In this document: piece by piece, positions 1,948-60,328 of the stretch
How the letters are laid out: every line of letters begins with the position of its first letter
Position numbering within the stretch: the first letter of the stretch is position 1
Assembly: GCF_025502585.1 (NCBI RefSeq)
Contig: NZ_CP106679.1
Span: 1 to 64,000, forward strand
DNA length: 64,000 nt
Direction: 5' to 3'
Source of the DNA: Reichenbachiella agarivorans
Lineage (GTDB): Bacteria > Bacteroidota > Bacteroidia > Cytophagales > Cyclobacteriaceae
Position numbers and translations under genes: made by a program
The notes under the pieces: model-generated
Database searches by the model: none
The model's input: only the letters and a program-made list of their open reading frames with translations
Told to the model about the DNA's origin: nothing

Positions 1948-2004
1948 TATCCCTTCCTTAGAGAGTATCTTGTAAAAATCAAACTCAGGTCTTTGGATAG
2001 TGCT

Positions 2005-2469
2005 TCAATCTCGAATATCAAGGTTGTGAGTAACACTTCTATAAGTTACTCCATTGTAATATTGAGGTTGATCATAGATACACTCTAGATAGTCCCCTTC
2101 TAGGGTTAACGCTAAGTGGTAGTGATTTAAGTTTAACGAGTATTTAATGTTAAAAAAGGCTTCCTTATCGCACCCTCCACAACTATCATCTTCAAAATAC
2201 TTTTTCGCTACTTTTTGAGCGTATTCATCAAAAGTTATGCCCTCATCAAATTTGGGTACTAATTCATAGTAAGTAAGTATTTTATTGTTGACTCTATCAA
2301 AGAAATTCAGATCACCATTTTTAGGCACAAAATGCGGTACCATTGCTTTAGTCCCATTTATTGTTAGCTGTTTCTCAACAATGGAATAATCTGGTATTTT
2401 ATTTTCTTGCGAAAACAAACTATTTGTAAGTAACAGCAATACAAATAGGAGAAAATTATTCTTATTCAT
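2005..2469 (-). CDS. Secreted protein, N-terminal half of a TGA-split gene
   Basis: 154 aa starting with a clear signal peptide (MNKNNFLLFVLLLLTNSLFSQ, cut after FSQ), so it is exported. The mature part is unrecognised. It contains a CGGC motif (DDSCGGCDKEAFF) in a segment about cell-envelope length, and ends ...SVTHNLDIRD at TGA 2005-2007. The same frame continues past the stop into the 1321-1947 ORF, so the product is probably a truncated form of a 380-residue protein. Its upstream side carries the heptamer ATCTAAC (2488-2494). Confidence 0.6.
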   Translation of the reverse strand: MNKNNFLLFVLLLLTNSLFSQENKIPDYSIVEKQLTINGTKAMVPHFVPKNGDLNFFDRVNNKILTYYELVPKFDEGITFDEYAQKVAKKYFEDDSCGGCDKEAFFNIKYSLNLNHYHLALTLEGDYLECIYDQPQYYNGVTYRSVTHNLDIRD

Positions 2470-2672
2470 TTCAACGAGACTTTTTGAATCTAACGTTCCG
2501 TGTATGGTGTCGTAGCATCCCGCAGGGTGCTATGCACTATACATATTGTTGTGTTTTCGTTTTTTATTTTTCGTTTTGTTTATTGCGTTGGCAAAGACAT
2601 ACTCTTTTGCAATTTTTGGCTTGTGTGTTGGCTTTAGCGAATTGTAAATGTGTATGGCTTTTAGCATTAGGC
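2470..2672. repeat. Spacer with hairpin and imperfect inverted repeat, related to 6860-6950
   Basis: This lies between the hamB stop and the split gene. Two structures are visible. An imperfect hairpin at about 2500-2543 has arms of the GTATGGTG..TAGCATCCC / GGGTGCTATGCACTATAC type. A second imperfect inverted repeat at about 2598-2660 begins GCGTTGGCAAA and has half-sites CATACTCTTTTGCA and TGTAAATGTGTATGG. The second block resembles the sequence upstream of hamA in the same orientation (shared GCGTTGGC, CTCTTTTG, AAATGTG). No coding potential is seen. Confidence 0.5.
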
Positions 2673-46246: not shown

Positions 46247-46384
46247 ACCAACAATGAATATCTACTACAGGTGGGTGGATAGTAATAAAAAGATTTTTTG
46301 TAACAATCACAATCAATGTGACAACAAAAAACTTACATAAACAGTGCCATAAACTATTAACGACAAGAAATTCAATCGCGTATT

Positions 46385-46744
46385 ATGAAATTTCCTTCTT
46401 TCATAAAAACCACCAAATACAGTCAATTTAGCTACGAGCCTCGCTATTATGATCCTATCAAGGAAGAAATAGACACCAAAATGAAAGCTGCCCGTGCCAG
46501 ACAAGCAGGCATTGATGCAGGTGATTCTTCCATGGAATACAAGTCAAGTATTTCAGCGGCATTTGGCAAGAGGGAAAAAAAATCTAACCAAACATCTATC
46601 GTCCAATTGCTACTGGCAGCAGCCATATTTGGCGTTGTGGTAGGATGGTTGTTCGTTGGCAATGACGTGTTCTACATTTTTCTGGTGCTTTCTCCATTGT
46701 ATTTTTATTTTCGACTCAAAAAGAAAAAATCACCTACACATTAA
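46385..46744 (+). CDS. Conserved small membrane protein upstream of mutL
   Basis: 119 aa. A basic/acidic N-terminal half without a signal peptide (FSYEPRYYDPIKEEIDTKM) is followed by one long or two short hydrophobic segments (about 72-112), then a Lys-rich tail. I recognise it only as a protein that commonly precedes mutL in this phylum. Its stop overlaps the mutL start by one base (TAATG), so the two are coupled. No function is proposed. Confidence 0.7.
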   Translation: MKFPSFIKTTKYSQFSYEPRYYDPIKEEIDTKMKAARARQAGIDAGDSSMEYKSSISAAFGKREKKSNQTSIVQLLLAAAIFGVVVGWLFVGNDVFYIFLVLSPLYFYFRLKKKKSPTH

Positions 46745-48606
46745 TGCAAGACATCATTCACTTATTGCCTGATGCAATTGCCAATCAAATAGCTGCGGGT
46801 GAAGTCGTCCAACGTCCAGCGTCCGTTGTAAAGGAATTGCTCGAAAACAGTATTGATGCGGAGAGTAGCAAAATTCAGCTAATCGTATCTGATGCAGGAA
46901 AAAATCTGATTCAAGTCGTGGATGATGGCAAAGGCATGAGCGAAACGGATGCCCGTATGAGTTTTGAGCGACATGCGACATCTAAAATCCGAACCTCGCA
47001 GGATTTGTTCAATATCCGCACGATGGGTTTTCGTGGAGAAGCTTTGGCATCTATTGCGGCAGTAGCTCGCGTCGAACTCAAAACCAAAACCGAATCGAAA
47101 GAACTAGGCACCTCTATCTTGATAGAAGCCTCAGAAGTGAAACATCAGTCACCAGACACGATGAACAAAGGCACGTCTATAGCAGTGAAAAACCTATTCT
47201 TCAACGTACCTGCCCGAAGGAATTTCCTCAAAAGCAATCCTGTAGAAATGCGCCACATCATAGACGAGTTTCAAAGAGTCGCTCTAGCCAATCCTCAGGT
47301 CAGCATGCATCTCACGCAAAACGACAAGGAAATCTACAACGCCCCAGGAGGAAAACTAAGTCAGAGAATCGTCCACCTCTTTGGAAAAAACTACCAAAGC
47401 CAGATGATCGCATGTCATGAAGAAACAGAATGGCTCAAAATCACTGGATATATAGGTAAACCCGAGCATGCCAAGAAGACAAGAGGAGAACAATTCTTTT
47501 TTGTGAACAATCGGTTTATCAAAAGTGGCTATTTGAACCATGCTGTTCAGGGAGCGTTTGAGGGATTAATCAAAGACGATCAGCACCCGTTTTACGCCCT
47601 GTACTTAGAGATGGATCCTGCGCGTATTGACATCAACGTACACCCAACCAAAACAGAGATCAAATTTGAAGATGAAAGGAGTGTCTATGGCATCATCAAA
47701 TCTGCTGTAAAACAGGCTTTGGGCACACACAACGTGACTCCTTCATTGGATTTTCATACAGATGTCAATTTTGAGAATTTCGCAGTACATAGCTACAAAT
47801 TCGAGTCTGGCACTGCTACCAAGGACAAAAGTTATGGCAATTTCAAGTCTATAGACCATCAACAAGGCAAATCAGCCAGATGGGAAAGTCTCTATGAGAG
47901 CGCTATCAATGAATCTACCCTGTCTCCAGCCGAAATCCGACAAGAAGAAATGGCTGGTTTTGATCAAAACAAGGCGGATGACCGACAGGAAAAAGTGCAA
48001 ATGGAAATCTCTTCTCAGATGTCTACCGCACAGGTCAATACGTCAGACCCCATACTCATGCACGAAAAATACGTGATGAAGCAGGTCAAGTCTGGCGTCA
48101 TGATATTGGATGCTGTACTGGCACATGAGCGAATCCTCTACGAGAAGTACAAACATACACTCAGCAACAAGACAGGGATGTCCCAGAAATGTCTATTCCC
48201 TGTCCATTTAGAGCTCAGTCCTGGCGACTTCTCATTGGTCATGGAATTGGAAAGCGAAATCTCTGCATTAGGATTTGAATTTGAAATATTCGGAGGGCAT
48301 AGCATCTCCATCAATGGTGTGCCTGCTGATGCCCAAAACATCAACGAAAAGGAATTGTTGGAAGGATTGATTGAACAGTTCAAGTTCAACAAATCCGAAC
48401 TTTCACTCAACAAACAAGAAAACATTGCCAGATCCATTGCCAAGAGATCTGCGAGTCGTACGAAAATTTCCAAAGAAATCGTCGAACTCAAAAGTCTCAT
48501 CGATCGTTTGTTTGCCTGCGATCAACCCAATTATACTCCTAATGGTACTCCTACATTTGTTATCTTAGGGCTCGAAAAAATTGTAGAATTTTTTAAGTAC
48601 AAATAA
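46744..48606 (+). CDS. mutL: DNA mismatch repair protein MutL
   Basis: 620 aa. GHKL ATPase N-terminal domain: IANQIAAGEVVQRPASVVKELLENSIDA, DDGKGM, RHATSKI and MGFRGEALASI, all intact. The C-terminal dimerisation domain is present. The endonuclease metal motif, DQHAxxExxxxE in nicking MutL proteins, reads DAVLAHERILYE (456-467). The usual C-terminal CPHGRP reads TPNGTP, so the nickase site appears lost. It links MutS to downstream repair. Overlaps the small membrane protein gene by one base and is followed directly by a rhomboid gene. Confidence 0.96.
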   Translation: MQDIIHLLPDAIANQIAAGEVVQRPASVVKELLENSIDAESSKIQLIVSDAGKNLIQVVDDGKGMSETDARMSFERHATSKIRTSQDLFNIRTMGFRGEALASIAAVARVELKTKTESKELGTSILIEASEVKHQSPDTMNKGTSIAVKNLFFNVPARRNFLKSNPVEMRHIIDEFQRVALANPQVSMHLTQNDKEIYNAPGGKLSQRIVHLFGKNYQSQMIACHEETEWLKITGYIGKPEHAKKTRGEQFFFVNNRFIKSGYLNHAVQGAFEGLIKDDQHPFYALYLEMDPARIDINVHPTKTEIKFEDERSVYGIIKSAVKQALGTHNVTPSLDFHTDVNFENFAVHSYKFESGTATKDKSYGNFKSIDHQQGKSARWESLYESAINESTLSPAEIRQEEMAGFDQNKADDRQEKVQMEISSQMSTAQVNTSDPILMHEKYVMKQVKSGVMILDAVLAHERILYEKYKHTLSNKTGMSQKCLFPVHLELSPGDFSLVMELESEISALGFEFEIFGGHSISINGVPADAQNINEKELLEGLIEQFKFNKSELSLNKQENIARSIAKRSASRTKISKEIVELKSLIDRLFACDQPNYTPNGTPTFVILGLEKIVEFFKYK

Positions 48607-49398
48607 ATGTTCAATCTGACACCCATGGTCAAAAACATCCTGATAATCAACATCGGGATTTTCTTAATAGGCTCTTTGCTCAAGCTAGACTTGTCGCACC
48701 TCTTTGGTGTACACTACATATTCTCGTCTGGTTTTTTTATTTTTCAATACGTCACCTACATGTGGTTGCATGCCAGTTTCATGCATGTACTGAGCAACAT
48801 GTTTGCTGTACTGATATTCGGACCTATGCTGGAGAGAGTTTGGGGATCCAAAAAATTCCTTATTTTCTACCTGATCACAGGTATCGGTGCTGGTCTACTC
48901 TATGGAGTGGCTGACACGATCGAAAAAAACAACCTGAGCAACGCCAAAGAGCAGTTTGTAGACAACCCCAACCCTGAGGACTTTTACATTTACATCCATA
49001 ATTACAACCGAGGTTATGACATGGTCAAGTTAGGAGACTTTGCAGATCAGTATTACGAGCATGCGGATGATCTCAGCTACACCAGTCAGGCAGTGTCAAT
49101 CGTCAATAGAATGTACGAAGACATGGTCAACATACCTATGGTAGGGGCATCAGGGGCGGTTTTCGGCATACTGATGGCCTTCGGCATGCTCTTTCCCAAT
49201 ACTCAATTGATTCTGCTATTTCCTCCCATACCCATCAAGGCAAAATATTTGGTGTTTTTCTATGGAGCTTATGAACTTTATTCGGAAATTAACAGGAGTG
49301 GAACAGACAATGTCGCCCATTTGGCACACTTGAGTGGTATGCTCATTGCCTTTGTCCTACTGAAGTACTGGGCAAGAAACGGACGTGATTTTTATTAA
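48607..49398 (+). CDS. Rhomboid family intramembrane serine protease
   Basis: 263 aa polytopic protein. Rhomboid landmarks: WLHASFMHVLSNMFAVLIFG (H/N in TM2), the catalytic Ser in MVGASGAVFGIL and catalytic His in NVAHLAHLSGML. An insertion of about 70 hydrophilic residues (about 105-165, acidic) sits between TM segments. It cleaves membrane-spanning substrates in the inner membrane. It starts directly at the mutL stop, and 18 bp separate it from a second rhomboid gene. Confidence 0.93.
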   Translation: MFNLTPMVKNILIINIGIFLIGSLLKLDLSHLFGVHYIFSSGFFIFQYVTYMWLHASFMHVLSNMFAVLIFGPMLERVWGSKKFLIFYLITGIGAGLLYGVADTIEKNNLSNAKEQFVDNPNPEDFYIYIHNYNRGYDMVKLGDFADQYYEHADDLSYTSQAVSIVNRMYEDMVNIPMVGASGAVFGILMAFGMLFPNTQLILLFPPIPIKAKYLVFFYGAYELYSEINRSGTDNVAHLAHLSGMLIAFVLLKYWARNGRDFY

Positions 49399-49416
49399 AT
49401 AATAGACGATATATCT

Positions 49417-50340
49417 ATGGATAATTTACTTGATGATTTCAAAAACGCATGGAGGAGACCAAACAATGCTCTGCCGCAAATCATCATTATCAATGTGGTT
49501 ATTTTTCTGGTACTAGCAGTACTTAACATTTTCGGGAAAATCGCAGGTGTAGAGTTTATTTCGAATTTTGTGTACGATCAGTTTAGCATCCCTCCTGCTT
49601 TTGCAGATTTCATTCAGCGACCATGGACGCTTATCACTTATGCTTTCGCGCATAGCCTGAACAGCATTTTTCATATCCTGTTCAACATGCTCGTTTTGTA
49701 CTGGTTTGGCAAATTAATCGTTGAGTATCTGGGCAATCAAAAACTCATCAACCTATACGTACTTGGTGCACTGGCGGGTGGCATTATCTATCTCTTAGTT
49801 TACAATTTGATCCCCTACTACATCGACAGGTCCAATTTCCCAGGAATGGTAGGAGCCTCTGCGGCAGTCTATGCCATCACGTTAGCAGCAGCAACCCTAC
49901 TACCCAATTACACCTTTTATCTGATGTTTTTAGGCCCTGTCAAGATCAAGTACATCGCAGGATTCTATATCTTGATTTCGTTTTTGGGTACTGTGGGAGG
50001 CAATGCTGGAGGCAATATAGCACATTTGGGAGGTGCTTTTATCGGCTATGTCTATATCAAGCAGTTGCAATCTGGAACGGACTGGGGTCTATGGATTGGT
50101 GGCGTGATGTCATTTTTCAAGAGCTTGTTTACCAAACAAGCTCCTATCAAAGTGTCTCACAAGAGAGCTAAAACGGAAAATCGAAGCGCTACAACTAGTA
50201 AGACTACATCAAGCACAGGACACAACATCGCCAACCAAGCGGAGATTGATGCGATTTTGGACAAAATATCGCAATCTGGCTATGAAAGCCTGAGCAAAGA
50301 AGAAAAGCAAAAACTATTTAATGCTAGTAACAAGAGTTGA
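49417..50340 (+). CDS. Second rhomboid protease with C-terminal DUF6576-like tail
   Basis: 307 aa. Six-TM rhomboid core: HSLNSIFHILFNMLVLYWFG, catalytic Ser in VGASAAVYAIT (GxSA instead of GxSG), catalytic His in NIAHLGGAFIGY. A basic, Ser/Thr-rich linker (about 245-270) leads to a small C-terminal helical segment (ILDKISQSGYESLSKEEKQKLF) shared by Bacteroidota rhomboids. Tandem with the preceding rhomboid, probably specialised for other substrates. Confidence 0.92.
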   Translation: MDNLLDDFKNAWRRPNNALPQIIIINVVIFLVLAVLNIFGKIAGVEFISNFVYDQFSIPPAFADFIQRPWTLITYAFAHSLNSIFHILFNMLVLYWFGKLIVEYLGNQKLINLYVLGALAGGIIYLLVYNLIPYYIDRSNFPGMVGASAAVYAITLAAATLLPNYTFYLMFLGPVKIKYIAGFYILISFLGTVGGNAGGNIAHLGGAFIGYVYIKQLQSGTDWGLWIGGVMSFFKSLFTKQAPIKVSHKRAKTENRSATTSKTTSSTGHNIANQAEIDAILDKISQSGYESLSKEEKQKLFNASNKS

Positions 50341-50356
50341 ATACGAGAGTAGAATT

Positions 50357-50427
50357 AAGAACCAAGAGTCAAGACAGAAAGTGAATCAGTTTTGTAGTCC
50401 TCGCTCCAATCCTGTGTCTTGGTTCTT
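50357..50427. terminator. Possible convergent terminator with long loop
   Basis: An 11-bp inverted repeat AAGAACCAAGA / TCTTGGTTCTT with a loop of about 49 nt lies between the second rhomboid gene (+) and DUF4494 (-), which converge. The long loop makes it a weak call. Confidence 0.35.
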
Positions 50428-50443
50428 TATCTAATGTAAAAAA

Positions 50444-50938
50444 TCATTCAGTTTCTACCTCTTCTTCTATTTCAGAGAGAGGTTTCAAGTTATCAGGAAT
50501 TTCTTCTTCCTCTGCGTCGTAAGGGTAAACTTCCACCACATTGGTTTTTGCTATTGATGGAATTTCGAAAGGCACTAGCATAGAATTCAAACTATCACTC
50601 ACTCGATCAAAGGCATGCTTTAGGTCTTCAGCATTCACTAAGAAGTAGGTGTTTACATTTACTTCCTTGCCACTATCACCATCTACACTAGAGTAAGTCA
50701 CTTTTGCCTTGTACCAATAATCAGCATCTTCAAAATGGATTAATTCACCGATGTTGGTTTTGGAGATATTGGTAACGGCAAACTCGCCACTGACATCTCG
50801 CTCCATCGCAGCATAAATACGCGACTCAGCCTCAGTATAACTCATGGCATCCACCAAGAAAACATCTGTGGTTTGTTTCATGATTCCTTCGTCATTCACC
50901 TTACCATACTTCACTTTGCACGAATACCATATTTTCAT
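50444..50938 (-). CDS. DUF4494 protein
   Basis: 164 aa, a soluble protein with no signal peptide. DUF4494 features: MKIWYSCKVKYGK at the start, two similar beta/alpha repeats (VDAMSYTEAESRIYAAM and VNAEDLKHAFDRV), each preceded by a WY-type strand, and an acidic tail. A Bacteroidota-specific family of unknown role. Transcribed alone. Confidence 0.88.
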   Translation of the reverse strand: MKIWYSCKVKYGKVNDEGIMKQTTDVFLVDAMSYTEAESRIYAAMERDVSGEFAVTNISKTNIGELIHFEDADYWYKAKVTYSSVDGDSGKEVNVNTYFLVNAEDLKHAFDRVSDSLNSMLVPFEIPSIAKTNVVEVYPYDAEEEEIPDNLKPLSEIEEEVETE

Positions 50939-51077
50939 TCTTGTAGCTTATTAATTTAATAAATTGATTTTGCAGGACTCAAAAGTAGACCTTAGCAAAG
51001 CTAAATTCCAACAAACTTAAAATCATCAGCAAACTATTTTCTATTTTTACTCTTCACAAAATGAAAATCAAACAGTT

Positions 51078-51626
51078 ATGAGAATAATTTTCTTTGCTCT
51101 ATTAATTATCAGCTTCAACAGCTTAGCTCAAGTCGGTGGTGTATTTCCAGACATGGCAACAGAATCCCTAACCAACAACATGATTGATCTCCCTTCTCAA
51201 ATCAAAGGTAAGTATGCTTTGATCGGCTTGGCCTATTCCAAAAAGGCAGAAGAAGATTTGCAACACTGGTTTTCACCAGTTTACAACAACTTCATTCACA
51301 AATCAGAGACACCTAATCCATTTAAGTTTGAATATGACATCAATACATACTTCATTCCTATGCTCACTGGCGCCAAAAGACCTGCCTATAAAAACACAAT
51401 GAAAAAAGTGCAGGAAACTGTTGACCCTAGGCTTAGACCACATGTATTGTTTTATGAAGGAACTATGAATCAATACAGAAACCTGCTCAAACTAGAGGAA
51501 TCTGATCTACCCTACTTTTTCATATTAGATCCTGATGGCGTGATCATTCATACTGCACAAGGAAGGTACACGGATAAGAAGATGCAAGAAATCATCAATG
51601 CCCTCGCTCCCTCACTTAAAAACTAA
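51078..51626 (+). CDS. Exported ATP10/thioredoxin-fold protein
   Basis: 182 aa. Signal peptide (IIFFALLIISFNSLAQ). The mature start FPDMATESLTNNMIDLPSQIKGKYALIGLAYSKKAEEDL has the layout of ATP10/AhpC-like thioredoxin folds, with no active-site Cys pair. The C-terminus PYFFILDPDGVIIHTAQG is the usual fold end. A chaperone or assembly role is possible; not determined. Strong terminator follows. Confidence 0.7.
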   Translation: MRIIFFALLIISFNSLAQVGGVFPDMATESLTNNMIDLPSQIKGKYALIGLAYSKKAEEDLQHWFSPVYNNFIHKSETPNPFKFEYDINTYFIPMLTGAKRPAYKNTMKKVQETVDPRLRPHVLFYEGTMNQYRNLLKLEESDLPYFFILDPDGVIIHTAQGRYTDKKMQEIINALAPSLKN

Positions 51627-51702
51627 AGTACAATTCACACAATTGGAAAAGCGTGTAATGATAGCATCCAACTTATAGTACGGACTTTCTTATAAACACA
51701 GA

Positions 51703-51736
51703 ATAAAAAAAGCTGGCTAATGTCAGCTTTTTTTAT
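51703..51736. terminator. Terminator after the ATP10-like gene
   Basis: Perfect 13-bp stem ATAAAAAAAGCTG / CAGCTTTTTTTAT with an 8-nt loop, 77 bp beyond the stop, T-runs in both directions. Confidence 0.85.
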
Positions 51737-51786
51737 GCACTTATATCAAGAATCTACAATTCGTTCATTAATCATGAAAAAAAATA

Positions 51787-51836
51787 AAAATATTATACAA
51801 CCGTTGCATGTAATATAAAATATTATACACATATTT
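51787..51836 (+). promoter_or_regulatory. Direct repeat and promoter-like region of the lipopeptide cluster
   Basis: AAAATATTATACA occurs twice with a 30-bp period (TATTATACA at 51791 and 51821). Just after the second copy is CATATTTG (51830-51837), one mismatch from TAnnTTTG. TTG at 51804-51806 is the nearest -33-like element, at a slightly long spacing. The start codon of the first lipopeptide gene lies 28 bp further on. Two half-sites three helical turns apart would suit a dimeric regulator. Inference. Confidence 0.4.
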
Positions 51837-51864
51837 GCTTATTAACTAACTAAATATCAATTAG

Positions 51865-52032
51865 ATGAAACTTATAAAAGCAGTATTAGTAGTATTTACC
51901 ATCCTCACTTTAGCATCAGCTTGTAGCCAGGAAGAAGATTTGGTTTTCCCATCTATTGACACGAAAGAAGCAACTGGTGGTGCGAGTGGAGACAGAGATA
52001 ACGGAAAAACACCTCCTGTCCCTTCTAATTAG
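51865..52032 (+). CDS. Small lipoprotein, tandem copy 1
   Basis: 55 aa. Lipoprotein signal (MKLIKAVLVVFTILTLASAC, Cys 20) followed by a 35-residue mature peptide SQEEDLVFPSID..., ending PPVPSN. The next two genes have the same layout. The mature core TKEATGGASGDRDNGKTPP is identical in all three, although copy 3 carries several silent codon changes. That is direct evidence that the peptide is translated and under selection. Acidic and Gly/Pro-rich, without Cys after position 20. No known family is recognised. It is the first of three genes with an exact 223-bp start-to-start spacing. Confidence 0.85.
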   Translation: MKLIKAVLVVFTILTLASACSQEEDLVFPSIDTKEATGGASGDRDNGKTPPVPSN

Positions 52033-52087
52033 AATCAACCAGACATTACTCTAGCTAAAAACATGACAAGAACTAAATAATCAAAAG

Positions 52088-52255
52088 ATGAAATTTATAA
52101 AAGCAGCATTAGTAGTATTTACCATCCTGACTTTAACATCAGCTTGTAGCCAAGAAGAAGATTTGATACTCCCATCTATTGACACGAAAGAAGCAACTGG
52201 TGGTGCGAGTGGAGACAGAGATAACGGAAAAACACCTCCTGTCCCTTCTAATTAG
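52088..52255 (+). CDS. Small lipoprotein, tandem copy 2
   Basis: 55 aa, start 223 bp after copy 1. The signal peptide differs at a few positions (MKFIKAALVVFTILTLTSAC). In the last 28 codons the DNA is identical to copy 1, including all wobble bases, so this is the younger duplication. Mature peptide SQEEDLILPSID... . The 55-bp spacer before it differs from the next one at only two bases. No separate promoter or terminator is seen, so one transcript for all three is likely. Confidence 0.85.
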   Translation: MKFIKAALVVFTILTLTSACSQEEDLILPSIDTKEATGGASGDRDNGKTPPVPSN

Positions 52256-52310
52256 AATCAACCAGACGTTACTCTAGCTAAAAACATAACAAGAACTAAA
52301 TAATCAAAAG

Positions 52311-52475
52311 ATGAAATTTATAAAAGCAGTATTAATAGCATTTACCATCCTTACTTTAGCATCAGCTTGTAGTCAAGAAGAAGATTTGATTTTACCATCT
52401 ATTGACACGAAAGAAGCAACTGGCGGTGCTAGTGGAGATAGAGACAACGGAAAAACTCCTCCAATTCCTTCTTGA
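52311..52475 (+). CDS. Small lipoprotein, tandem copy 3
   Basis: 54 aa, again exactly 223 bp after the previous start. Its Gly/Asp-rich core is encoded with different wobble bases from copies 1 and 2 (GGC for GGT, GCT for GCG, GAT for GAC, GAC for GAT, ACT for ACA, CCA for CCT), yet the amino acids are the same. Only V-to-I and loss of the final Asn differ at the end. The pattern fits purifying selection on the mature peptide. Followed by an 83-bp spacer containing a perfect hairpin that touches the next start codon. Confidence 0.85.
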   Translation: MKFIKAVLIAFTILTLASACSQEEDLILPSIDTKEATGGASGDRDNGKTPPIPS

Positions 52476-52502
52476 TTTTACAATTCTTTAAAAAGAATAC
52501 AA

Positions 52503-52558
52503 AGCAATAAAGGTAAATTAAGTAGAATTCTTCCTCTACTTAATTTACCTTTATTGCT
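52503..52558 (+). repeat. Perfect 24-bp-stem inverted repeat abutting the TPR gene start
   Basis: Left arm 52503-52526 and right arm 52535-52558 are exact complements, with an 8-nt loop (ATTCTTCC). The next base is the A of the TPR gene ATG (52559). In mRNA it would bury everything just upstream of the start codon. There is no U-tract after it beyond the U-rich right arm itself, so it could be a terminator for the lipopeptide genes, a translation lock on the TPR gene, or an operator. Confidence 0.9.
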
Positions 52559-53617
52559 ATGAAGAAAAAAATTGGTCTCTTTTCGCTTCTTTTTTTAATG
52601 GGGTCAATTGCCTGTATTTATTTTTTTAGAGGTAAGACAGGCTCTTTACCTATAGACTTGAAAGAATCAAGTAATAGGATGATTGGGGGTCAATATGATT
52701 CTGCCATTTTTTATGCGAAGAAGATAATAGCTAATTCAAACAGTGCTTACAATCAGCTTTACGCATTCAGCATCATAGGATATAGCTGGTTTGAACAAGG
52801 AGAATTAGATTCTGCTTTATTCTATTATTCCAAGGCTTTAACATTTGAAAGCACAACCAATCCAGGGCTTAAAGCAAGTTCTTTGAACATGATTGGTTTA
52901 ATTCTTCAAGAAAAACAAACTCACGATAAATCCATCAAGTATTTTAGAGAATCCATATCTCTTTATGAAACAATAAATAGTAAACAGTTACCAATCGTTT
53001 ACTACAACCTTGCCTACAACCAAAGTCAAACCAACAACATAGAATGCATAGAATCGTATTACAAAGCACTGGAATACGCTTCTGATTTTAAAGATTTAAA
53101 ATATGAAGCATACTGCCTTTCGGACCTCGGCAATCTCATGCTAGAGACTAAAAACTACAATTCTGCGATAGAATACTTCCTTGCCTCACTCGATAATGAA
53201 TATGCCAAAAATCATCCAAGAAGAAAAGCGGTAGCTCTACAGGGATTAGGGGAATCAGAATTTTACACCAGAGACTACAGTAGCGCCAAAGTACATGCCT
53301 TGGAAGCCTTGAAACTCAAAATGGAAAACGGGTATGAAGAGTTTCTTTTTACGTCATATTTGTTACTGGGTCGTATTTACAGAGAAACGAATGAACTAGA
53401 AGAAGCGGAAAACAATTTCAAGAGAGCAATTATTTATTATCCTTACAACGAACGCAATAAAAAGAACGTGGCTGTTTTTAAGGAATTGGGAGATGTAGAA
53501 CTTCAGCTTGGTAAACTCAAACAAAGTGAATACTACAATCAAATTCATTTTGAAGAACTGGAAAGGCAATTGGACGAAAGAAAACAAGCACACAATCTAA
53601 AAATAATTGCCATCTAA
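52559..53617 (+). CDS. Membrane-anchored TPR-repeat protein next to the lipopeptide cluster
   Basis: 352 aa. A basic N-terminus and hydrophobic stretch (MKKKIGLFSLLFLMGSIACI) form an uncleaved signal anchor, or possibly a poor lipobox at Cys 19. The positive end predicts that the rest is periplasmic. About six to seven TPR units follow (from about residue 45 to 335, for example ALFYYSKALTFES, SIKYFRESISLYE, AIEYFLASLDNE, AENNFKRAIIYYP). The end KQAHNLKIIAI is where Bacteroidota TPR regulators usually enter a transmembrane helix and a LuxR-type HTH. Both are missing, and the next gene converges 18 bp away, so this is a short version or a truncation. No function known. Confidence 0.8.
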   Translation: MKKKIGLFSLLFLMGSIACIYFFRGKTGSLPIDLKESSNRMIGGQYDSAIFYAKKIIANSNSAYNQLYAFSIIGYSWFEQGELDSALFYYSKALTFESTTNPGLKASSLNMIGLILQEKQTHDKSIKYFRESISLYETINSKQLPIVYYNLAYNQSQTNNIECIESYYKALEYASDFKDLKYEAYCLSDLGNLMLETKNYNSAIEYFLASLDNEYAKNHPRRKAVALQGLGESEFYTRDYSSAKVHALEALKLKMENGYEEFLFTSYLLLGRIYRETNELEEAENNFKRAIIYYPYNERNKKNVAVFKELGDVELQLGKLKQSEYYNQIHFEELERQLDERKQAHNLKIIAI

Positions 53618-53634
53618 GAATGTGCTTCCATACC

Positions 53635-54615
53635 TTAAGCTAAGACTTCTTTGGAATCTTGCTCGTATTGATACACCAAACTAGCCGCTCCAACTATGGC
53701 AGCATTGGCACCTTCTAGCTGTGAAGGCAGGATCTTGACCTCTGCTTTGTAAATATTGAGCATATTGGCATCCATGTACTTCTTGGTAGGTTCAAAAATC
53801 AAATCACCCGCAGATGCCAATCCTCCAAAAAGAAAAACCGCCTCAGGATTAACAATAGAAACCATGTTGGCCAATTGACGGCCTAGAATTTTACCCGTAG
53901 TAACAAATGCTTTCTTGGCAATTTCATCTCCATCCAATGCGGCCTGCGCAATATCCTTTGCTTCTAATTGATCGAAAGGCACAGCACTCAATCTACTTTG
54001 CTCCCCCTGACTGGCTAACAAATGAAGATAGGTTCTTTTGATCCCAGTGGCTGAAACATAAGTCTCCAGACATCCTTTCCTTCCACATTTACAGGCACGA
54101 CCTCCTCCCTTGCCCTTGATCAATACATGTCCTAGCTCGGCAGCAAGGCTCTCAGCACCTATCAGCAACCGTCCTCCTGTGACTATACCACTTCCGAGTC
54201 CTGTTCCCAGTGTAATCATCACAAAATCCTTCATCCCCTTTGCAGCACCAAAGATCATCTCACCCATAGTGGCGGCATTGGCATCATTGCTTAACACCAC
54301 TGGCACATTCAGCTCAGCTGTCAACAACTCCACGAGAGGTAAGCTACCCTTCCATGGCAAATTAGAAGCATCTGTGATGCACCCAGTGTAGAAATTTCCT
54401 CCTGGTGCCCCCACTCCCACTCCTGCAATTTCATAATCAGGATAGGCTAGTAACCATTGCTTAACAATTTTGCTCAGCGTAGTGATAAACTCTGCAAATG
54501 TGTGCTCTCCTGTTGTACTGATTTTTTCTTCAATTATCACCTCCCCTAAGGAATCGACAAGTCCCAACTTGGTACCTGTCCCTCCTATATCTATTCCTAC
54601 AATCAGACGCTTCAT
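53635..54615 (-). CDS. ROK-family sugar kinase (glucokinase-like)
   Basis: 326 aa. ATP motif GIDIGGTGTKLGLVD at the start, catalytic Asp in VLSNDANAATMGE, ROK zinc motif CKCGRKGCLETY (about 177-188) and the second ATP block FLFGGLASAG. It phosphorylates glucose, ManNAc or GlcNAc. Downstream of nagB and a symporter in the same direction, so an amino-sugar kinase role is plausible. Confidence 0.88.
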   Translation of the reverse strand: MKRLIVGIDIGGTGTKLGLVDSLGEVIIEEKISTTGEHTFAEFITTLSKIVKQWLLAYPDYEIAGVGVGAPGGNFYTGCITDASNLPWKGSLPLVELLTAELNVPVVLSNDANAATMGEMIFGAAKGMKDFVMITLGTGLGSGIVTGGRLLIGAESLAAELGHVLIKGKGGGRACKCGRKGCLETYVSATGIKRTYLHLLASQGEQSRLSAVPFDQLEAKDIAQAALDGDEIAKKAFVTTGKILGRQLANMVSIVNPEAVFLFGGLASAGDLIFEPTKKYMDANMLNIYKAEVKILPSQLEGANAAIVGAASLVYQYEQDSKEVLA

Positions 54616-54627
54616 CCCTTCCTTCGT

Positions 54628-56433
54628 TTAGTTCAAATTGAGCTTGCTCATTACTTTAAACAATGCTACCGTACCCACTGTAGCAACAATAGCCAATATG
54701 ATCCCTTGCAGCATGTTGCCATATACGAATCCCCCAATCGCAAAAAGAGAAGAATATATCACAGTACAACCAATAAATATCAACAGTACCTGTCGTGGCA
54801 TTTGCCAAACAACCCCCTCATTGTCATCACAAGGCTGACCATCAGCAATGGCTTCATCCACTACTTTTTTCCATCCTGGCCCACCTGGCTTGGTCAATTT
54901 ATAAAATGCTCTGAGTACTTCTTTATCCTCTGGAGCAGTAAATAAAGCAGTTGCTAGCCATGTCACCGTAACAGCTCCTGTAGTAATTAGAATCTTCATG
55001 GTCATCCCATCCAGTAGCTCTGTGGCCACCATCGCATCATCAACAAACAATGTCAATACAACCGCCATAACAGTTGCCAGAATCATCGCAACAATCTCAG
55101 TAAGTGCGTTGATTCTCCACCAAAACCACCTCAGGAGATAAATTGCACCTGAACCTGCTCCTGACAACAAGAGAATATTGAAAGCGTCAGTGGCATTGTC
55201 CAAAATAGTCAGAGACAAAGTACCTGCCAGAATCATCAATACTACAGTTGTCATTCTACCCATGGCCACCATTTGCTTTTCGGTTGCATCAGGCTTGGCA
55301 AATCGCTTGTAAAAATCATTGACAAAATAAGATGAACCCCAGTTGAGATGAGTACCTATTGTGGACATGTAAGCAGCTATAATAGAAGCAACCACCAGAC
55401 CCAACCATCCAGTGCCCAATTTAGACAGCATCACAGGGTAGGCAATATCATCCTTGAGATAGGTAGGGTCAATGTTTGGGAACTCAGCTTGAATAGAAGC
55501 CATGTCGGGATAAATAACAATAGATGCAAGTGCCACAATGATCCATGGCCATGGTCTCAACGCATAATGAGCGAAGTTGAAAAGCAAGGTAGCTCCCACT
55601 GCATTTTTTTCATCTTTGGCAGAAAGCATGCGTTGAGCGATGTAGCCTCCTCCACCTGGTTCTGCACCAGGATACCACACCGCCCACCATTGCACTGCAA
55701 TTGGAAATAACAACAATGGAACCCAAACAGAAGGATCTGTAAAATCTGGTATAACACTCAATTTGGACTGAACAGCTGGATGCGTGATCAAATTGGCTAA
55801 ACCGTTAACCTCTGGTTGTTGCAGTGCAACATAGGCTGCATAGACAGCTCCAAACATAGCAATACCATACTGAAAAAAGTCTGCCCATACTACCCCTTTT
55901 ATTCCTCCCAAAGAGGCATACAACACCACAACAATCGATGCACCCACTACAATCACCCAAGGCTCTAATCCTAGCATGACCCCACCAATTTTAATGGCCG
56001 CCAAGGTCACTGAACCCATGATCAGGCAGTTGAAAAATACACCTAGGTAAATAGCTCTAAAACCTCTGAGGAAAGATGCTTTTTTACCTCCATATCTGAT
56101 TTCATAAAATTCTAAATCTGTATTGACAGCTGATTTTCTCCACAGACGAGCGTAAATAAATACTGTAACCATACCAGTGATCAAAAATGCCCACCAAGCC
56201 CAGTTTTTCACTACACCATTTTCTCTGACAAAACCTGTAACCAAATTGGGTGTATCTGCAGAAAAGGTACAGGCTACCATAGAAATCCCTAGCAACCACC
56301 AAGGCATACCTCGTCCTCCTAGAAAAAACTCACTAGAACTTTCCCCAGCAGAGAGTGAGGCCTTCCAACCAATCCCTAATACAATGAGGAAAAACACCCC
56401 AATAATCACCCAATCTATCGTCTCTAATAACAT
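54628..56433 (-). CDS. Sodium:solute symporter family transporter
   Basis: 601 aa with about 14 membrane segments. SSS features: GRGMPWWLLGISMVACTFSADTP near the start, GGIKGVVWADFFQYG, WPWIIVALASI and MSTIGTHLNWGSSYFVNDFYKRF. It moves a sugar or acid with sodium across the inner membrane. Located between nagB and the ROK kinase, 12 bp from the latter, so an amino-sugar or its derivative is the likely cargo. The substrate cannot be read from sequence. Confidence 0.9.
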   Translation of the reverse strand: MLLETIDWVIIGVFFLIVLGIGWKASLSAGESSSEFFLGGRGMPWWLLGISMVACTFSADTPNLVTGFVRENGVVKNWAWWAFLITGMVTVFIYARLWRKSAVNTDLEFYEIRYGGKKASFLRGFRAIYLGVFFNCLIMGSVTLAAIKIGGVMLGLEPWVIVVGASIVVVLYASLGGIKGVVWADFFQYGIAMFGAVYAAYVALQQPEVNGLANLITHPAVQSKLSVIPDFTDPSVWVPLLLFPIAVQWWAVWYPGAEPGGGGYIAQRMLSAKDEKNAVGATLLFNFAHYALRPWPWIIVALASIVIYPDMASIQAEFPNIDPTYLKDDIAYPVMLSKLGTGWLGLVVASIIAAYMSTIGTHLNWGSSYFVNDFYKRFAKPDATEKQMVAMGRMTTVVLMILAGTLSLTILDNATDAFNILLLSGAGSGAIYLLRWFWWRINALTEIVAMILATVMAVVLTLFVDDAMVATELLDGMTMKILITTGAVTVTWLATALFTAPEDKEVLRAFYKLTKPGGPGWKKVVDEAIADGQPCDDNEGVVWQMPRQVLLIFIGCTVIYSSLFAIGGFVYGNMLQGIILAIVATVGTVALFKVMSKLNLN

Positions 56434-56511
56434 AATTCAGAATTCAAATTTTAAACTGATTAACCTCAAACCTACGCATTACTATGCATAAGCCCTCATA
56501 GTATTTGTCAC

Positions 56512-58464
56512 CTAGTAGTGGTAGCGCACGAAACCTTCAATAGCCTCATACTCTGGTAGACCTAACACGTCATATTCTTTAGCGGTAGCTCTGTTTCGAT
56601 CTTCTGATCTCTGCCAAAACTCACGATCGTCTTCTCCTTGAAACACTACCCCATCTTTTTGAGATTGGTGTCTCCAAATAGCTACCCTTTTCTTCATTAG
56701 TTCCTCTGGGCTAATAGGCACAGCCATTTCGATCTCGTCGATTGGAAACTCATGCCAAGCACCTCTGTATAACCACATCCAGCAGTCTTTCATGAATTTC
56801 TCAGGCTTCAATTGTTCCACGGCAGCAAATATCCCTTTGAGACAAACCTCGTGCGTACCGTGTGGATCCGCCAAATCACCTGCTGCGTATATTTGATGGG
56901 GCTTTATTTCTTCAATCAGATCCTTGATGATTTTGACATCTGCATCACCTAAAGGATTCTTCTCAACTTTTCCTGTTTCATAAAAAGGCAAATCTAGATA
57001 ATGCACTTGACTGTCAGGGATTCCATAGTATCTACAAGCACTGATAGCCTCTCCTCTACGGATCAATCCTTTGATCTTTCTTACATCTACAGGCAGTACA
57101 TCTTTGTTGGTATTGGATTTGAGTTGTTTGAACAACTTATCAAACACCTTGTCATCGGCCTTTTCGCCAGCAGCATACTCATACAAGTTTTTGGCAAACT
57201 CGGCGAAACGATAAGCTTCATGATCTGCAACAGCAATATTTCCTGATGTTTGGTATGCCACATGTACTTCGTGTCCTTGATCTACCAATCTCAAGAAAGT
57301 GCCACCCATGGAGATCACATCATCATCTGGATGAGGAGAGAAAATAATGATTCGCTTCTTAGCTGGATTAGCTCTTTCTGGTCTGTGGCTATCATCCGCA
57401 TTGGGCTTACCTCCTGGCCAGCCAGTGATAGTATGTTGGAAATGGTTGAACATTTTGATATTCACTTGATACGATCCCCCTTCACCCAGAATATTTGACA
57501 TGCCATTGTCATTGTAGTCTCTGTCGGTCAATTTGAGTATTGGTTTTTTCACTTTTTGACTCAACCATACGACTGCCTTTCTCTTCAATGCCTCAGTCCA
57601 TTCGCATTCGCCAACTAGCCAAGGAGTTTGTATCCGAGTGAGGTTCAAAGCTGCCGATTCATCCATTACAAAAGAGACATCCTTGTGTTGCTGGAGGAAA
57701 GTAGCTGGCACATCAGATGACATTTCACCCTCAACTGTTTTCTTTACGATCTCAGCTTTTTTCATTCCCCAAGCTAGAATCACGACACGCTTGGCATTGA
57801 GGATCGTACCCACACCCATGGTCACAGCTTTGGTAGGCACATCAGCCATGCTACTAAATGCAAAGGCGTTGTCTTGAATGGTAAGGTGATCTAGTGTGAT
57901 CATTCGGGTCAAAGAATTGATCTTAGAACCAGGCTCATTGAATCCAATGTGACCTGTACGTCCAATTCCTAAAAGCTGGAAATCCAAGCCTCCGTAGCTC
58001 TCAATTTTTTCTTCATACTGAGTACATGCCTCTGACATGTGCTCGTAGGGAACTTTACCATTAGGGATGTTGATATTCTCGGCAAGGATGTCCACATGAT
58101 CGAAAAGATGGTGATGCATGAAATAGATGTAACTCTGAACATCTGACTTGCTGAGTCCGTAGTACTCATCGAGATTGAATGAAACCACATTTCGAAAACT
58201 CAAGCCTTCTTCCCTGTGCATGCGAATCAGTTCTTTGTACACTTTGATAGGTGAAGAACCCGTAGCTAGCCCTAGCACACACTTTTCATTTTTTTCTGTC
58301 TTGTACCTGATCAATGCAGCGATTTCGTGCGCTACAATTTTAGATGCCTCTTCGGCATCTGTGAATATCTCTGAATGAATTTTTTCAAATTTGGTGGATT
58401 CCAAAGTACTCCACTCTTTTCGGCTGATTCGCTTCATCTTAGGTCTCTCTTCTGTTGTGATCAT
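56512..58464 (-). CDS. nagB: Glucosamine-6-phosphate deaminase fused to a PIG-L/LmbE deacetylase domain
   Basis: 650 aa. The NagB half (about 30-290) has GLATGSSPIKVYKELIRMH, FNLDEYYGL with catalytic Asp, and LLGIGRTGHIGFNEPGS with the general-base His. The C-terminal half (about 370-640) is a PIG-L domain with the metal motif IIFSPHPDDDVISMGG and the second His in LADPHGTHEVC. NagB converts GlcN-6-P to Fru-6-P plus ammonia. The PIG-L domain may remove N-acetyl groups, so one protein could do the NagA-like and NagB steps. This double-domain form is known in Bacteroidota. Confidence 0.95.
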   Translation of the reverse strand: MITTEERPKMKRISRKEWSTLESTKFEKIHSEIFTDAEEASKIVAHEIAALIRYKTEKNEKCVLGLATGSSPIKVYKELIRMHREEGLSFRNVVSFNLDEYYGLSKSDVQSYIYFMHHHLFDHVDILAENINIPNGKVPYEHMSEACTQYEEKIESYGGLDFQLLGIGRTGHIGFNEPGSKINSLTRMITLDHLTIQDNAFAFSSMADVPTKAVTMGVGTILNAKRVVILAWGMKKAEIVKKTVEGEMSSDVPATFLQQHKDVSFVMDESAALNLTRIQTPWLVGECEWTEALKRKAVVWLSQKVKKPILKLTDRDYNDNGMSNILGEGGSYQVNIKMFNHFQHTITGWPGGKPNADDSHRPERANPAKKRIIIFSPHPDDDVISMGGTFLRLVDQGHEVHVAYQTSGNIAVADHEAYRFAEFAKNLYEYAAGEKADDKVFDKLFKQLKSNTNKDVLPVDVRKIKGLIRRGEAISACRYYGIPDSQVHYLDLPFYETGKVEKNPLGDADVKIIKDLIEEIKPHQIYAAGDLADPHGTHEVCLKGIFAAVEQLKPEKFMKDCWMWLYRGAWHEFPIDEIEMAVPISPEELMKKRVAIWRHQSQKDGVVFQGEDDREFWQRSEDRNRATAKEYDVLGLPEYEAIEGFVRYHY

Positions 58465-58703
58465 GACTTTTCAAACTCTCTAAATGTACGAAAAACTAGC
58501 CGGATCTTAATTGACAATTTTGACTAAAAATGCTTCGCTAAAACTAAAATCCGGCTTTGTTTTCTCTCTAAACTCTAAAAGTATCAACTACTAATAATTA
58601 ATTAAAACTAGCTCTATTCAGCAGGCTTACGAAAAAAAATAGCTAAAGCGGGAGCTTTTAAAGCTAAACGACTAGGATACAAATATAAGCAAATAAATAA
58701 AAT

Positions 58704-58717
58704 GTGTGCGCGCACAC
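58704..58717. promoter_or_regulatory. GTGTGCGCGCACAC palindrome upstream of nagB
   Basis: A 14-bp perfect palindrome of high G+C in A+T-rich DNA. On the minus strand a TATATTTG (58687-58680) lies 16 bp further downstream, a full TAnnTTTG match. The palindrome would therefore sit over the -33 position of a nagB promoter. Candidate operator; inferred. Confidence 0.4.
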
Positions 58718-58724
58718 TATAATA

Positions 58725-58760
58725 AATAAAAAGAGTCATGTTGCCATGACTCTTTTTATT
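58725..58760 (-). terminator. Terminator after the second susD
   Basis: Perfect 16-bp stem AATAAAAAGAGTCATG / CATGACTCTTTTTATT with a 4-nt loop, 20 bp beyond the susD stop. T-runs on both strands. Confidence 0.88.
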
Positions 58761-58780
58761 ATCAACTAATCTGTAATTAC

Positions 58781-60328
58781 TTACTTAGACCACCAGTGCT
58801 TTCTGCCTTCATGGTCTTGGCTAGCTACTGCTGCATAGTTGTCTGGATTTAATATTTTTTGCGAAGTAGGGTACTTCACTCTTTGTACAGGTGTTCCTGC
58901 TGGTACATTGGTATTCAACTGAACACCATAGTCCACAACAGGAAGTCCCAATCTTCTCAAATCAGCCCATGCTTCCCATCCATTGTCAGGATATCCACCA
59001 AGATACTTCTGAGCCATAACTTTCTCTAAGTCAGTACCTTTTCCGTCTCCCCATGATGCAGAAATCCCCATACCGTTTTCTTCTCCAGAAGCCAAATAGG
59101 TAGCAGATGAGCTAAGTCCCCAGTACTCAAATGAAGCAGCTACTCCGCTTTCGTAAGCTGATTGAGCTGTTACACCCATATTCCAGCCGTTCAATGCACC
59201 TTCTGCTCTCAAGAACCAAACCTCCGAGATCGGCATAATCGTCCATGTACGGTTGTTATCTCCATTGAATTCACCTCTCAATGTCACGTTGATACGAGAG
59301 TTGTTTTGTGCAAAATTGGATGGATCAGCTCTTTCGGTAGCATTCAAGCCTGCAGCAATTCCAGCCCATCTGCCATCAAAACCTTCAGCTCTGTCTACAG
59401 TATTTTGATCAGATGTACCAAAGATAATCGTCGCTCTAGGATCAACCATCGCTGGATAGTTGATAGCAGCAGCTCCTACGTCAGCTGTATTAAATGCCAA
59501 CCCGCCGATACCAATTGTCAAGTCATAAAAAGTCTTGCTCATAGCAACACCGTTACCTGGACCCCACCAGAAATAGTAGTTGTAGCTATAGCCCTCGCCC
59601 CAAAGCTGCGTGTTAGCATACATAGTAGGCATATTGGCAAGACTCTCTAATACACCTCCAGCTACTGCTGCTTCGGCGTGCGTCTTGGCCAAAGCTGCGT
59701 CTACACCAGATACTCTCATCGCCAATCTCAATCTCAACGAGTTGCCAAATTTGCTCCACTTGGCCAAATCACCGTTGTAAATTGGGTCGCTAAACATAGC
59801 CAAATCAGGATTTATGCTTGAAACAGCCTCTTCCAATTGGCTCAGCATATCTTTGTAAATACTCTCTTCAGTGTCATAAACACCATCTATGACATTTGAA
59901 TATGGAATATCTCCCATCAAATCAACCGCACGATGTGTGATCCACACTCTCCAGATTTTCATGACAGCCACGGAATTCACATAACTCTCATTGTCACCAT
60001 ACTGATTAATAAGGATACTAAGAGAATTGAACCATCTGTAGTGGTTGTCCCAGTAGAGTGACGTCCATCCGTCTTCTGAGTTTCCTTGGTAGGAACCAAA
60101 ACCAGTACCTGTATAATACTGAGCAAACATGTCTACATACAGGTTATGAATCCTTTGGTGTAGTTCTGCTGCAAGGCATGCTTCCTTAAACACACTACCT
60201 ACTTTGAGACCTGGATCGACATTTTCAGCCAATGGATTGTTGGGGTCTGTATTTAATTCTTCCCAGTCCGAACATGCACTGAACATCAAGGTCAATGCAA
60301 GTACACTTGTTAATATTTTTACTTTCAT
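58781..60328 (-). CDS. SusD/RagB family lipoprotein (SusD-like 2), amino-sugar locus
   Basis: 515 aa. Lipobox LMFSAC (Cys 19), then the SusD-like-2 signature WEELNTDPNNP. Later blocks: GDIPYSNVIDG, SLRLRLAMRVSG and a C-terminal QKYLGGYPDNGWEAWADLRRLGLP. Surface lid for the SusC encoded 12 bp upstream. Followed by a terminator, so nagB and the symporter are not strictly in the same transcript. Confidence 0.93.
   Translation of the reverse strand: MKVKILTSVLALTLMFSACSDWEELNTDPNNPLAENVDPGLKVGSVFKEACLAAELHQRIHNLYVDMFAQYYTGTGFGSYQGNSEDGWTSLYWDNHYRWFNSLSILINQYGDNESYVNSVAVMKIWRVWITHRAVDLMGDIPYSNVIDGVYDTEESIYKDMLSQLEEAVSSINPDLAMFSDPIYNGDLAKWSKFGNSLRLRLAMRVSGVDAALAKTHAEAAVAGGVLESLANMPTMYANTQLWGEGYSYNYYFWWGPGNGVAMSKTFYDLTIGIGGLAFNTADVGAAAINYPAMVDPRATIIFGTSDQNTVDRAEGFDGRWAGIAAGLNATERADPSNFAQNNSRINVTLRGEFNGDNNRTWTIMPISEVWFLRAEGALNGWNMGVTAQSAYESGVAASFEYWGLSSSATYLASGEENGMGISASWGDGKGTDLEKVMAQKYLGGYPDNGWEAWADLRRLGLPVVDYGVQLNTNVPAGTPVQRVKYPTSQKILNPDNYAAVASQDHEGRKHWWSK

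Follow-up and report, generated by a model that had tools for sequence, protein, structure and literature searches.

Why should three genes for very small lipoproteins, a long inverted repeat and a gene for a membrane-anchored protein with tetratricopeptide repeats (TPRs) follow one another directly on the chromosome of Reichenbachiella agarivorans, and do they belong together? The question is raised by a 64,000-nt stretch of this 4.47 Mb genome (NZ_CP106679.1, positions 1-64,000; hereafter the window), the features of which are collected in Table 1. An earlier description, made from the letters alone (the sequence-only reading), had proposed that the peptides and the TPR protein interact and that the hairpin sets their expression ratio. 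The answer that we favour, with a probability of roughly 0.55, is that the locus is a self-contained module in which the lipopeptide is coupled to a dedicated periplasmic TPR receptor or partner whose synthesis is limited by the hairpin, and that it constitutes an offshoot or a parallel of a wider pairing with TPR kinases.

Table 1. Features of the lipopeptide-TPR module in the window.
Feature	Coordinates	Strand	Basis
Conserved promoter-like block CCGTT...ACATATTTGC	51801..51838	+	aligned in 4 genomes
Small lipoprotein copy a, 55 aa	51865..52032	+	open reading frame list, repeat analysis, peptide alignment
Small lipoprotein copy b, 55 aa	52088..52255	+	open reading frame list, repeat analysis, peptide alignment
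Small lipoprotein copy c, 54 aa; mature start CSQEED	52311..52475	+	open reading frame list, repeat analysis, codon comparison
Stem-loop, 24-bp, abutting the start codon of the TPR gene; covariation across 4 genomes	52503..52558	+	repeat, folding and covariation analyses
Membrane-anchored TPR protein, 352 aa	52559..53617	+	Pfam (TPR-type matches only), AlphaFold2, hydropathy

A clear association between the components is found within the genus. The lipopeptide is present in four of the eight Reichenbachiella genomes, and exactly those four encode a full-length orthologue of the TPR protein (55-61% identity). The four loci have a common layout with conserved spacing, in which a promoter-like block, the lipopeptide gene, the hairpin, the TPR gene and a convergent ROK kinase gene succeed each other, and the distance between the lipopeptide gene and the TPR gene is 75-83 nt throughout. 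The lipopeptide measures 52-55 aa and is encoded by a single gene in each of the three other module genomes, versus three genes in the window. At locus L047 the module is whole although the upstream neighbour, which we take to be a dnaK-like gene, differs, the usual ATP10-like neighbour being located on another contig; both the ATP10-like and the ROK gene occur in the four genomes that lack the module. The sequence-only reading would have been refuted by a lack of conservation of the peptide next to TPR proteins; this refutation fails, since the pair is kept in half of the genus, and other small lipoproteins are encoded next to TPR genes elsewhere in the family. A scan of the genome contigs with the TPR alignment returned one relative, R. 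agariperforans. In genome G007, which lacks the module, a 293-aa open reading frame (ORF) that appears TPR-like by eye adjoins the ROK gene where the TPR gene stands in the module genomes (L086:2510-3391); it had no match in Pfam or to the TPR profiles made here.

Homologues of the lipopeptide were also sought outside the genus. A profile of the six module peptides gave no convincing match in 390 genomes of the order, its matches there being limited to signal peptides in ORFs of 177-483 aa, and a profile of three peptides gave, among 295 genomes of the family, one match outside the genus in an ORF below 100 aa (L022, E 0.006), the small ORF being located 107 nt upstream of a TPR gene. A different pair is found in genome G003 of the genus, which lacks the module: the gene for a 52-aa lipoprotein precedes that of a 438-aa TPR protein by 58 nt, and this TPR protein has a hydrophobic segment at its C-terminal end (L226:287-1820). 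When 20 further TPR loci in the genus were inspected, it was the sole one with a small lipoprotein gene within 450 nt upstream, and since this pair has no hairpin, the hairpin is not general to such pairs.

The codons of the window copies indicate that the small genes are expected to be translated. The exact 223-bp period of the three gene starts, asserted in the sequence-only reading, is confirmed by the ORFs and by the repeat analysis, which found a family of three copies of 223 nt with 93% and 77% identity to the first copy, encoding near-identical lipoproteins. Between copies c and a there are two synonymous changes in C20-E24 and four in residues 41-51, between copies c and b one and four, and in neither comparison is there a non-synonymous change. 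It is because these segments differ by silent changes only that translation is expected; in the signal peptide, one synonymous change stands versus three to four non-synonymous changes, and residues 25-40 have one or two non-silent changes as well. All six module peptides show an N-terminal positive charge, a hydrophobic core and a lipobox-like SAC, as read from the sequence, and all six have the mature start C-S-Q-E-E-(D/E). The residues invariant among them include C20-S-Q-E-E, P29, D32, G42, R44, G47 and T49-P50-P51. The window peptides had no Pfam match at E 0.1, and their NCBIfam matches were all below the cut-off. We considered and rejected a precursor of a ribosomally synthesised and post-translationally modified peptide: a chryseobasin-related model reached 16 of 40 bits with two of the three peptides (E 0.012 and 0.015), and no modification enzyme was recognised by eye in the ORF list of 46000-60000.

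As the sequence-only reading had it, a perfect 24-bp stem immediately precedes the TPR start: positions 52503-52526 pair with 52535-52558 across an 8-nt loop, and the last base touches the ATG at 52559. Its folding, compared with shuffled sequences, gave z = -7.3 and -10.0 for two stretch lengths, and a long stem is present at all four module loci (z -4.8 to -10.0), ending flush with the ATG in the window, 1 nt before it in genome G004, and extending over the first bases of this codon in G001 and G006. For the four sequences we set a structure of 22 pairs ourselves, in which 94.3% of the cells in the alignment are paired, and double-sided changes occur in 9 of the 22 pairs versus 3.7 in shuffles (0 of 500 shuffles reach nine), with pairing at 48% or less when the partner is slid by 1-3 columns. 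An RNA structure is the better reading, because palindromes bound by a protein on the DNA would not be expected to swap both arms freely. Of the 42 window genes compared, the TPR gene has the strongest structure at its start (-34.0 kcal versus a mean of -11.3, s.d. 6.4), 26 of the 28 nt at -25..+3 being paired, where the next highest gene has 20. An A at -3 is found in none of the four TPR starts and in only two of the six lipopeptide starts (copies b and c), so that this feature alone fails to separate the two kinds of gene. In Flavobacterium an A at -3 promotes initiation, and structure near the start lowers translation with a modest effect, according to PMC6847099. It is mainly the position and conservation of the hairpin that suggest a throttling of TPR translation. 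The expression ratio that the sequence-only reading had ascribed to it is compatible with this conserved, covarying element at the TPR start.

It is also conceivable that the hairpin acts on the stability or processing of the RNA, for instance as a substrate of a double-strand RNase, or is a degenerate terminator, and that translation is not gated. Helices of some 20-24 bp suit RNase III, and in all 22 same-strand relatives measured the lipoprotein gene is followed by a hairpin with a T-run that resembles a terminator, so that the Reichenbachiella hairpin may descend from a terminator. Nevertheless, a T-run after the hairpin is found in none of the four Reichenbachiella loci, for which reason an intrinsic terminator was rejected there, and in all four the 3' arm ends within 1 nt of the ATG or reaches into it, which neither processing nor termination would require; we regard this explanation as doubtful. 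A role as regulon element was also rejected, as covariance model R1, searched in the eight genus genomes with the best 150 of 1354-4038 candidates per genome scored, gave strong matches at the four module loci only, on both strands each, and the next at E 0.097 and 0.123. Rfam 15 yielded sub-threshold microRNA and small-RNA models only, none at gathering score; the best match over the hairpin (36 of 70 bits, a microRNA model on the opposite strand) is taken as chance. The loops of L047, L048 and L049 share GCAAC, absent from the window loop (52527-52534), a possible loop-binding site.

The TPR protein of the window has no kinase or DNA-binding domain according to Pfam, and PADLOC returned a generic TPR model only. 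Its orthologues in the four genomes (350-356 aa) have a single N-terminal hydrophobic segment, with a best 19-residue hydropathy of 2.2-2.8, a net charge of +2 to +3 within the first five residues, and no further segment over the threshold. This hydropathy reading agrees, in all four, with the periplasm-facing TPR domain that the sequence-only reading had deduced from the signal anchor. AlphaFold2 predicts a TPR superhelix (pLDDT 86.6, pTM 0.80), the first 28 residues being of low confidence. The closest solved folds are the TPRs of LGN/Pins, which bind linear peptides (Z 28-30), followed by consensus TPRs and, further down, by the RRNPP receptors RapI (Z 23.7) and NprR (Z 23.2) and by SprE (Z 22.1). 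The fold that the predicted model has in common with peptide-binding proteins shows no function.

Small lipoproteins are encoded directly upstream of TPR genes in other genera as well, next to homologues of the window protein. Over the loci examined at this stage, a small lipoprotein-like ORF lies 0-200 nt upstream of 14 of 62 TPR genes versus 8 of 228 other genes (Fisher p 9e-6); the 14 include the four module loci and one spurious ORF (L140), and the eight control ORFs resemble, by eye, in-gene fragments or chance ORFs. For a census, a profile of five small lipoproteins that contains no TPR sequence was searched in 295 family genomes, with at most 22 candidates scored per genome. The matches listed included 36 loci other than the seeds at which the small ORF is at most 90 aa long, and 33 of these adjoin a TPR gene, at distances up to about 0.8 kb and with no intervening ORF of 230 aa or more: 22 on the same strand with the lipoprotein gene upstream, and 11 divergent. 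Of the same 36, those of G240 and G284:C16 are not beside a TPR gene, and that of G274 lies at a contig edge. Left out were A8 matches in ORFs above 130 aa together with G202 (125 aa) and G078 (129 aa); of five long-ORF matches examined, three have no TPR gene within 350 nt downstream, and the loci L191 and L194 end too soon. Tandem copies recur: G024 has three, spaced by 174 and 171 bp, and there are three in G186 and in G141, and two plus one in G293; one lipoprotein triplet (L192:1156-1635) is divergent from a gene for a TPR histidine kinase (L197:1070-3298), and similar triplets are found at L199/L223 and L210/L224. Four partner peptides had no Pfam match better than E 0.06. By hand count, an adjacent acidic pair at +3/+4 or +4/+5 is present in 47 of 51 distinct peptides, in a list that had been pre-filtered for at least one acidic residue at +2 to +6.

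Such adjacency could reflect synteny only, without a functional link between the small lipoproteins and the TPR genes. The neighbours of homologous loci are shared by descent, and 8 of the 11 divergent loci lie, in the stretches examined, near a metG-like or bioB-like gene (by sequence motif), so that many of the divergent loci may represent one ancestral locus. We nevertheless find this quite improbable: the association occurs in two orientations and with two kinase classes, the eight control ORFs do not resemble genuine small lipoproteins by eye, and the module is intact at L047, where the flank differs. In addition, an orphan homologue (L173; G240:C1:3490400-3490525, minus strand), in which the lipobox cysteine that would carry the lipid anchor has become phenylalanine, has no TPR gene in the surrounding 5 kb and looks like decay after the loss of its partner.

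According to Pfam, histidine-kinase domains are present in 9 of the 14 scanned TPR partners, five with HisKA_2 and four with HATPase_c, three of the latter also with HisKA (two below its cut-off), and are lacking in the other five. All nine kinase partners have one hydrophobic segment between the TPRs and the kinase; in the four kinase-less partners measured such a segment lies near the C terminus, and the window protein has an N-terminal anchor instead. Response-regulator-like ORFs, judged by translation, directly follow two paired TPR genes (L206:1-722 and L215:1170-1895). Among the forms of interaction that the sequence-only reading had left side by side, 'signal and sensor' gains most from these kinase domains, and, because the partners include kinases, 'ligand and receptor' becomes likelier than 'surface peptide and chaperone'.

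In a purely structural pair, an abundant envelope or surface lipopeptide would be served by a TPR assembly factor or holdase, and no signalling would be involved. The triplication, together with the lack of such a hairpin at the first gene, would suggest a high dosage; the window protein lacks an output domain, as 5 of the 14 partners lack a kinase, and the fold matches include SprE, the TPR protein that forms part of the type IX secretion translocon. An assembly role leaves the nine histidine kinases unexplained, and we hold a purely structural pair to be unlikely.

The lipopeptide-receptor module that we prefer could operate as follows. A single promoter would drive the tandem lipopeptide genes and then the TPR gene, presumably in one transcript, and the RNA hairpin over the TPR start would let the lipopeptide exceed the TPR protein, which would be of low abundance, anchored by its N terminus and exposing its superhelix in the periplasm. 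Genetic linkage and the relatives suggest that it is the dedicated receptor or partner of the lipopeptide. The module may then have branched off, without a kinase, from a wider pairing of small acidic lipoproteins with TPR histidine kinases in the same bacterial family, or may run parallel to it, a pairing in which the lipopeptide is most simply a ligand, an inhibitor or a trafficking sentinel read by the periplasmic TPR domain of the kinase. Of this picture, conservation, covariation, linkage and architecture are observed, and the single transcript, the surplus of lipopeptide, the contact in the periplasm and the signalling are inferred. More tentatively, and with slightly less than even chances in our estimate, all of these loci may represent an undescribed class of envelope signalling in this family of Bacteroidota, in which periplasmic TPR receptors, often histidine kinases, each have lipid-anchored mini-proteins as dedicated ligands, at times encoded in tandem copies; the Reichenbachiella receptor would have shed its kinase and, throttled by the hairpin at its start codon, would act as a ligand sink, a decoy or a co-receptor.

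The start of the mature lipopeptide bears on where the two proteins could meet. To our knowledge, the lipoprotein export signal (LES) has not been put to the test in this order. In PMC5080379 this surface-export signal is given as C-X-K-(D/E)2-X, or as a polar residue followed by two acidic ones, and the module peptides match the looser 'polar residue' form and not the K form given there. If the signal is functional here, the lipopeptide would cross the periplasm and end on the cell surface. The assumption of the sequence-only reading that it stays in the periplasm is not supported, as the start resembles such a signal. A specific form of the receptor module would take advantage of this passage: the lipopeptide would report on lipoprotein traffic, lingering in the periplasm when export is blocked and there engaging the TPR protein, which, without a kinase, could be a co-receptor, sink or chaperone. 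All six module peptides start with residues near the export signal as formulated in PMC5080379, the acidic pair is found in most peptides of the pre-filtered list (47 of 51), and NlpE/Cpx of E. coli has this logic, acting as a sentinel of lipoprotein trafficking (PMC6538781). Acidic starts, however, are common among surface lipoproteins of Bacteroidetes and need not mark a sensor, and we think this specific form improbable as well, about on a par with the structural pair.

Several observations weigh against the module of lipopeptide and dedicated periplasmic receptor. The CSQEE start suggests surface export, which would take the peptide away from a periplasmic receptor, and the window protein ends after its TPRs, without an output domain. 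Conservation of the TPR groove as evidence of peptide binding was looked for and not found: 18 of 35 concave positions are invariant, compared with 23 of 35 other helix-A positions and 135 of 315 overall, in a repeat register that we set ourselves and that is doubtful in the last repeat, so that the contact proposed in the sequence-only reading gains nothing here. The hairpin sequences number only four. No small lipoprotein-like ORF lies upstream of 48 of the 62 TPR genes, nor is there such an upstream neighbour at six other TPR loci looked at in the R. agarivorans genome. Some of the census is due to the descent of whole loci from a common ancestor: the seeds had been selected by their position upstream of TPR genes, so that adjacency to TPR genes is to be expected among homologous loci, and close genomes have near-identical versions of several of the 36 loci. 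Finally, a profile comparison of the Reichenbachiella peptides with those of other genera aligned 22 columns, covering the signal peptide and the first mature residues, with a probability of 92.6, and homology is not proven because the similarity is confined to those columns.

Upstream of the lipopeptide gene lies the promoter-like block. Its pattern CCGTTN{22,30}ACATATTTGC, searched in the exact form, has a single match per module genome and none in the other four of the genus, and the block was dropped as a regulon site given this distribution of the exact pattern among the eight genomes. The block shows five of the six specified letters of the Bacteroidetes -7 box TAnnTTTG. The block also contains a partial inverted repeat TGTG...CACA, clearest in G004, a possible operator. 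The 13-nt direct repeat with a spacing of 30, noted in the sequence-only reading, is indeed present at 51787 and 51817; as an operator it was dropped and is given no weight, because it was not seen upstream of the lipopeptide gene in the other three module genomes, by reading the alignments, and a comparable repeat arose in 12 of 2000 first-order Markov simulations of this AT-rich stretch.

As to the surroundings, the minus strand of 53635-60328 carries a cluster convergent with the module that contains the ROK sugar kinase (Pfam); ORFs beside it that we take to be sodium/solute symporter-, glucosamine-6-phosphate deaminase- and SusD-like would make it a cluster for the use of amino sugars. 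Two consecutive genes at 48607-50340, presumably rhomboid-protease-like, are located near the module in L048 and L049 as well.

TPR-domain histidine kinases are common in the Bacteroidota, and for most of them we know of no ligand. A small lipoprotein encoded beside such kinases is a concrete candidate, and one that would link lipoprotein export to signalling. According to PMC11885536, the surface-lipoprotein route of the Bacteroidota is still unknown, and PMC6847099 describes their mRNAs as lacking Shine-Dalgarno sites. In such a phylum the covarying start-codon hairpin is a candidate translational valve, and a second element, separate from the pairing.

How does the module compare with known systems? 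The sequence-only reading knew of no named system with this layout, and neither Pfam and NCBIfam nor the papers listed in searches of the open-licence literature on Reichenbachiella, on Bacteroidetes TPR proteins with a lipoprotein or histidine kinase, and on peptide signalling yielded a named family or a description of the pair. The RRNPP systems (Rap-Phr, NprR-NprX, PlcR-PapR) share a small peptide gene adjoining that of a TPR protein of 250-500 aa. Of the five points of the RRNPP signature in PMC10075063, the module agrees with four, among them a propeptide of 10-100 aa (here 52-55 aa), a receptor of 250-500 aa with TPRs (here 350-356 aa, with TPR matches in Pfam and a predicted superhelix) and a distance between neighbours of -60 to 400 bp (here 75-83 nt); the fifth is Sec export, for which a lipoprotein tag counts, in the same paper, at the 'relaxed' level only. 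The RRNPP receptor is intracellular, whereas hydropathy predicts an N-terminal membrane anchor for the TPR protein in all four module genomes. Moreover, RRNPP systems were described from Firmicutes and their mobile elements, whereas the module peptide has a lipobox and the relatives use kinases.

In NlpE-CpxA and RcsF-Rcs a lipoprotein is monitored by an envelope sensor kinase, a possible logic for the kinase-bearing relatives; the window TPR protein differs by having no kinase. NlpE and RcsF are larger proteins whose genes are not known to adjoin that of the kinase, and CpxA is not known to have a TPR domain. The module resembles both the RRNPP pairs and NlpE-Cpx, and membership in either is not supported. 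For both kinase partners scanned in NCBIfam, the model that matches best is FimS (NF053520), a TPR sensor histidine kinase of Porphyromonas (E 1.3e-39 and 9.4e-41). The match spans the TPR and kinase parts and scores 136-140 bits, where the cut-off is 600; the window protein, without kinase, reaches only 24 bits. We know of no small-lipoprotein partner of FimS. The 59-position model of the PG1828 family of small lipoproteins (NF050142) weakly matches two of the five partner peptides scanned, at E 2e-5 (residues 1-25) and 0.005, with 25 and 18 of 50 bits and mostly in the signal peptide, and none of the three window peptides. The window protein does not end in a histidine kinase, unlike 9 of the 14 scanned partners elsewhere; in its small lipoprotein with an acidic start, encoded beside a TPR gene, the module does fit the class outlined here.

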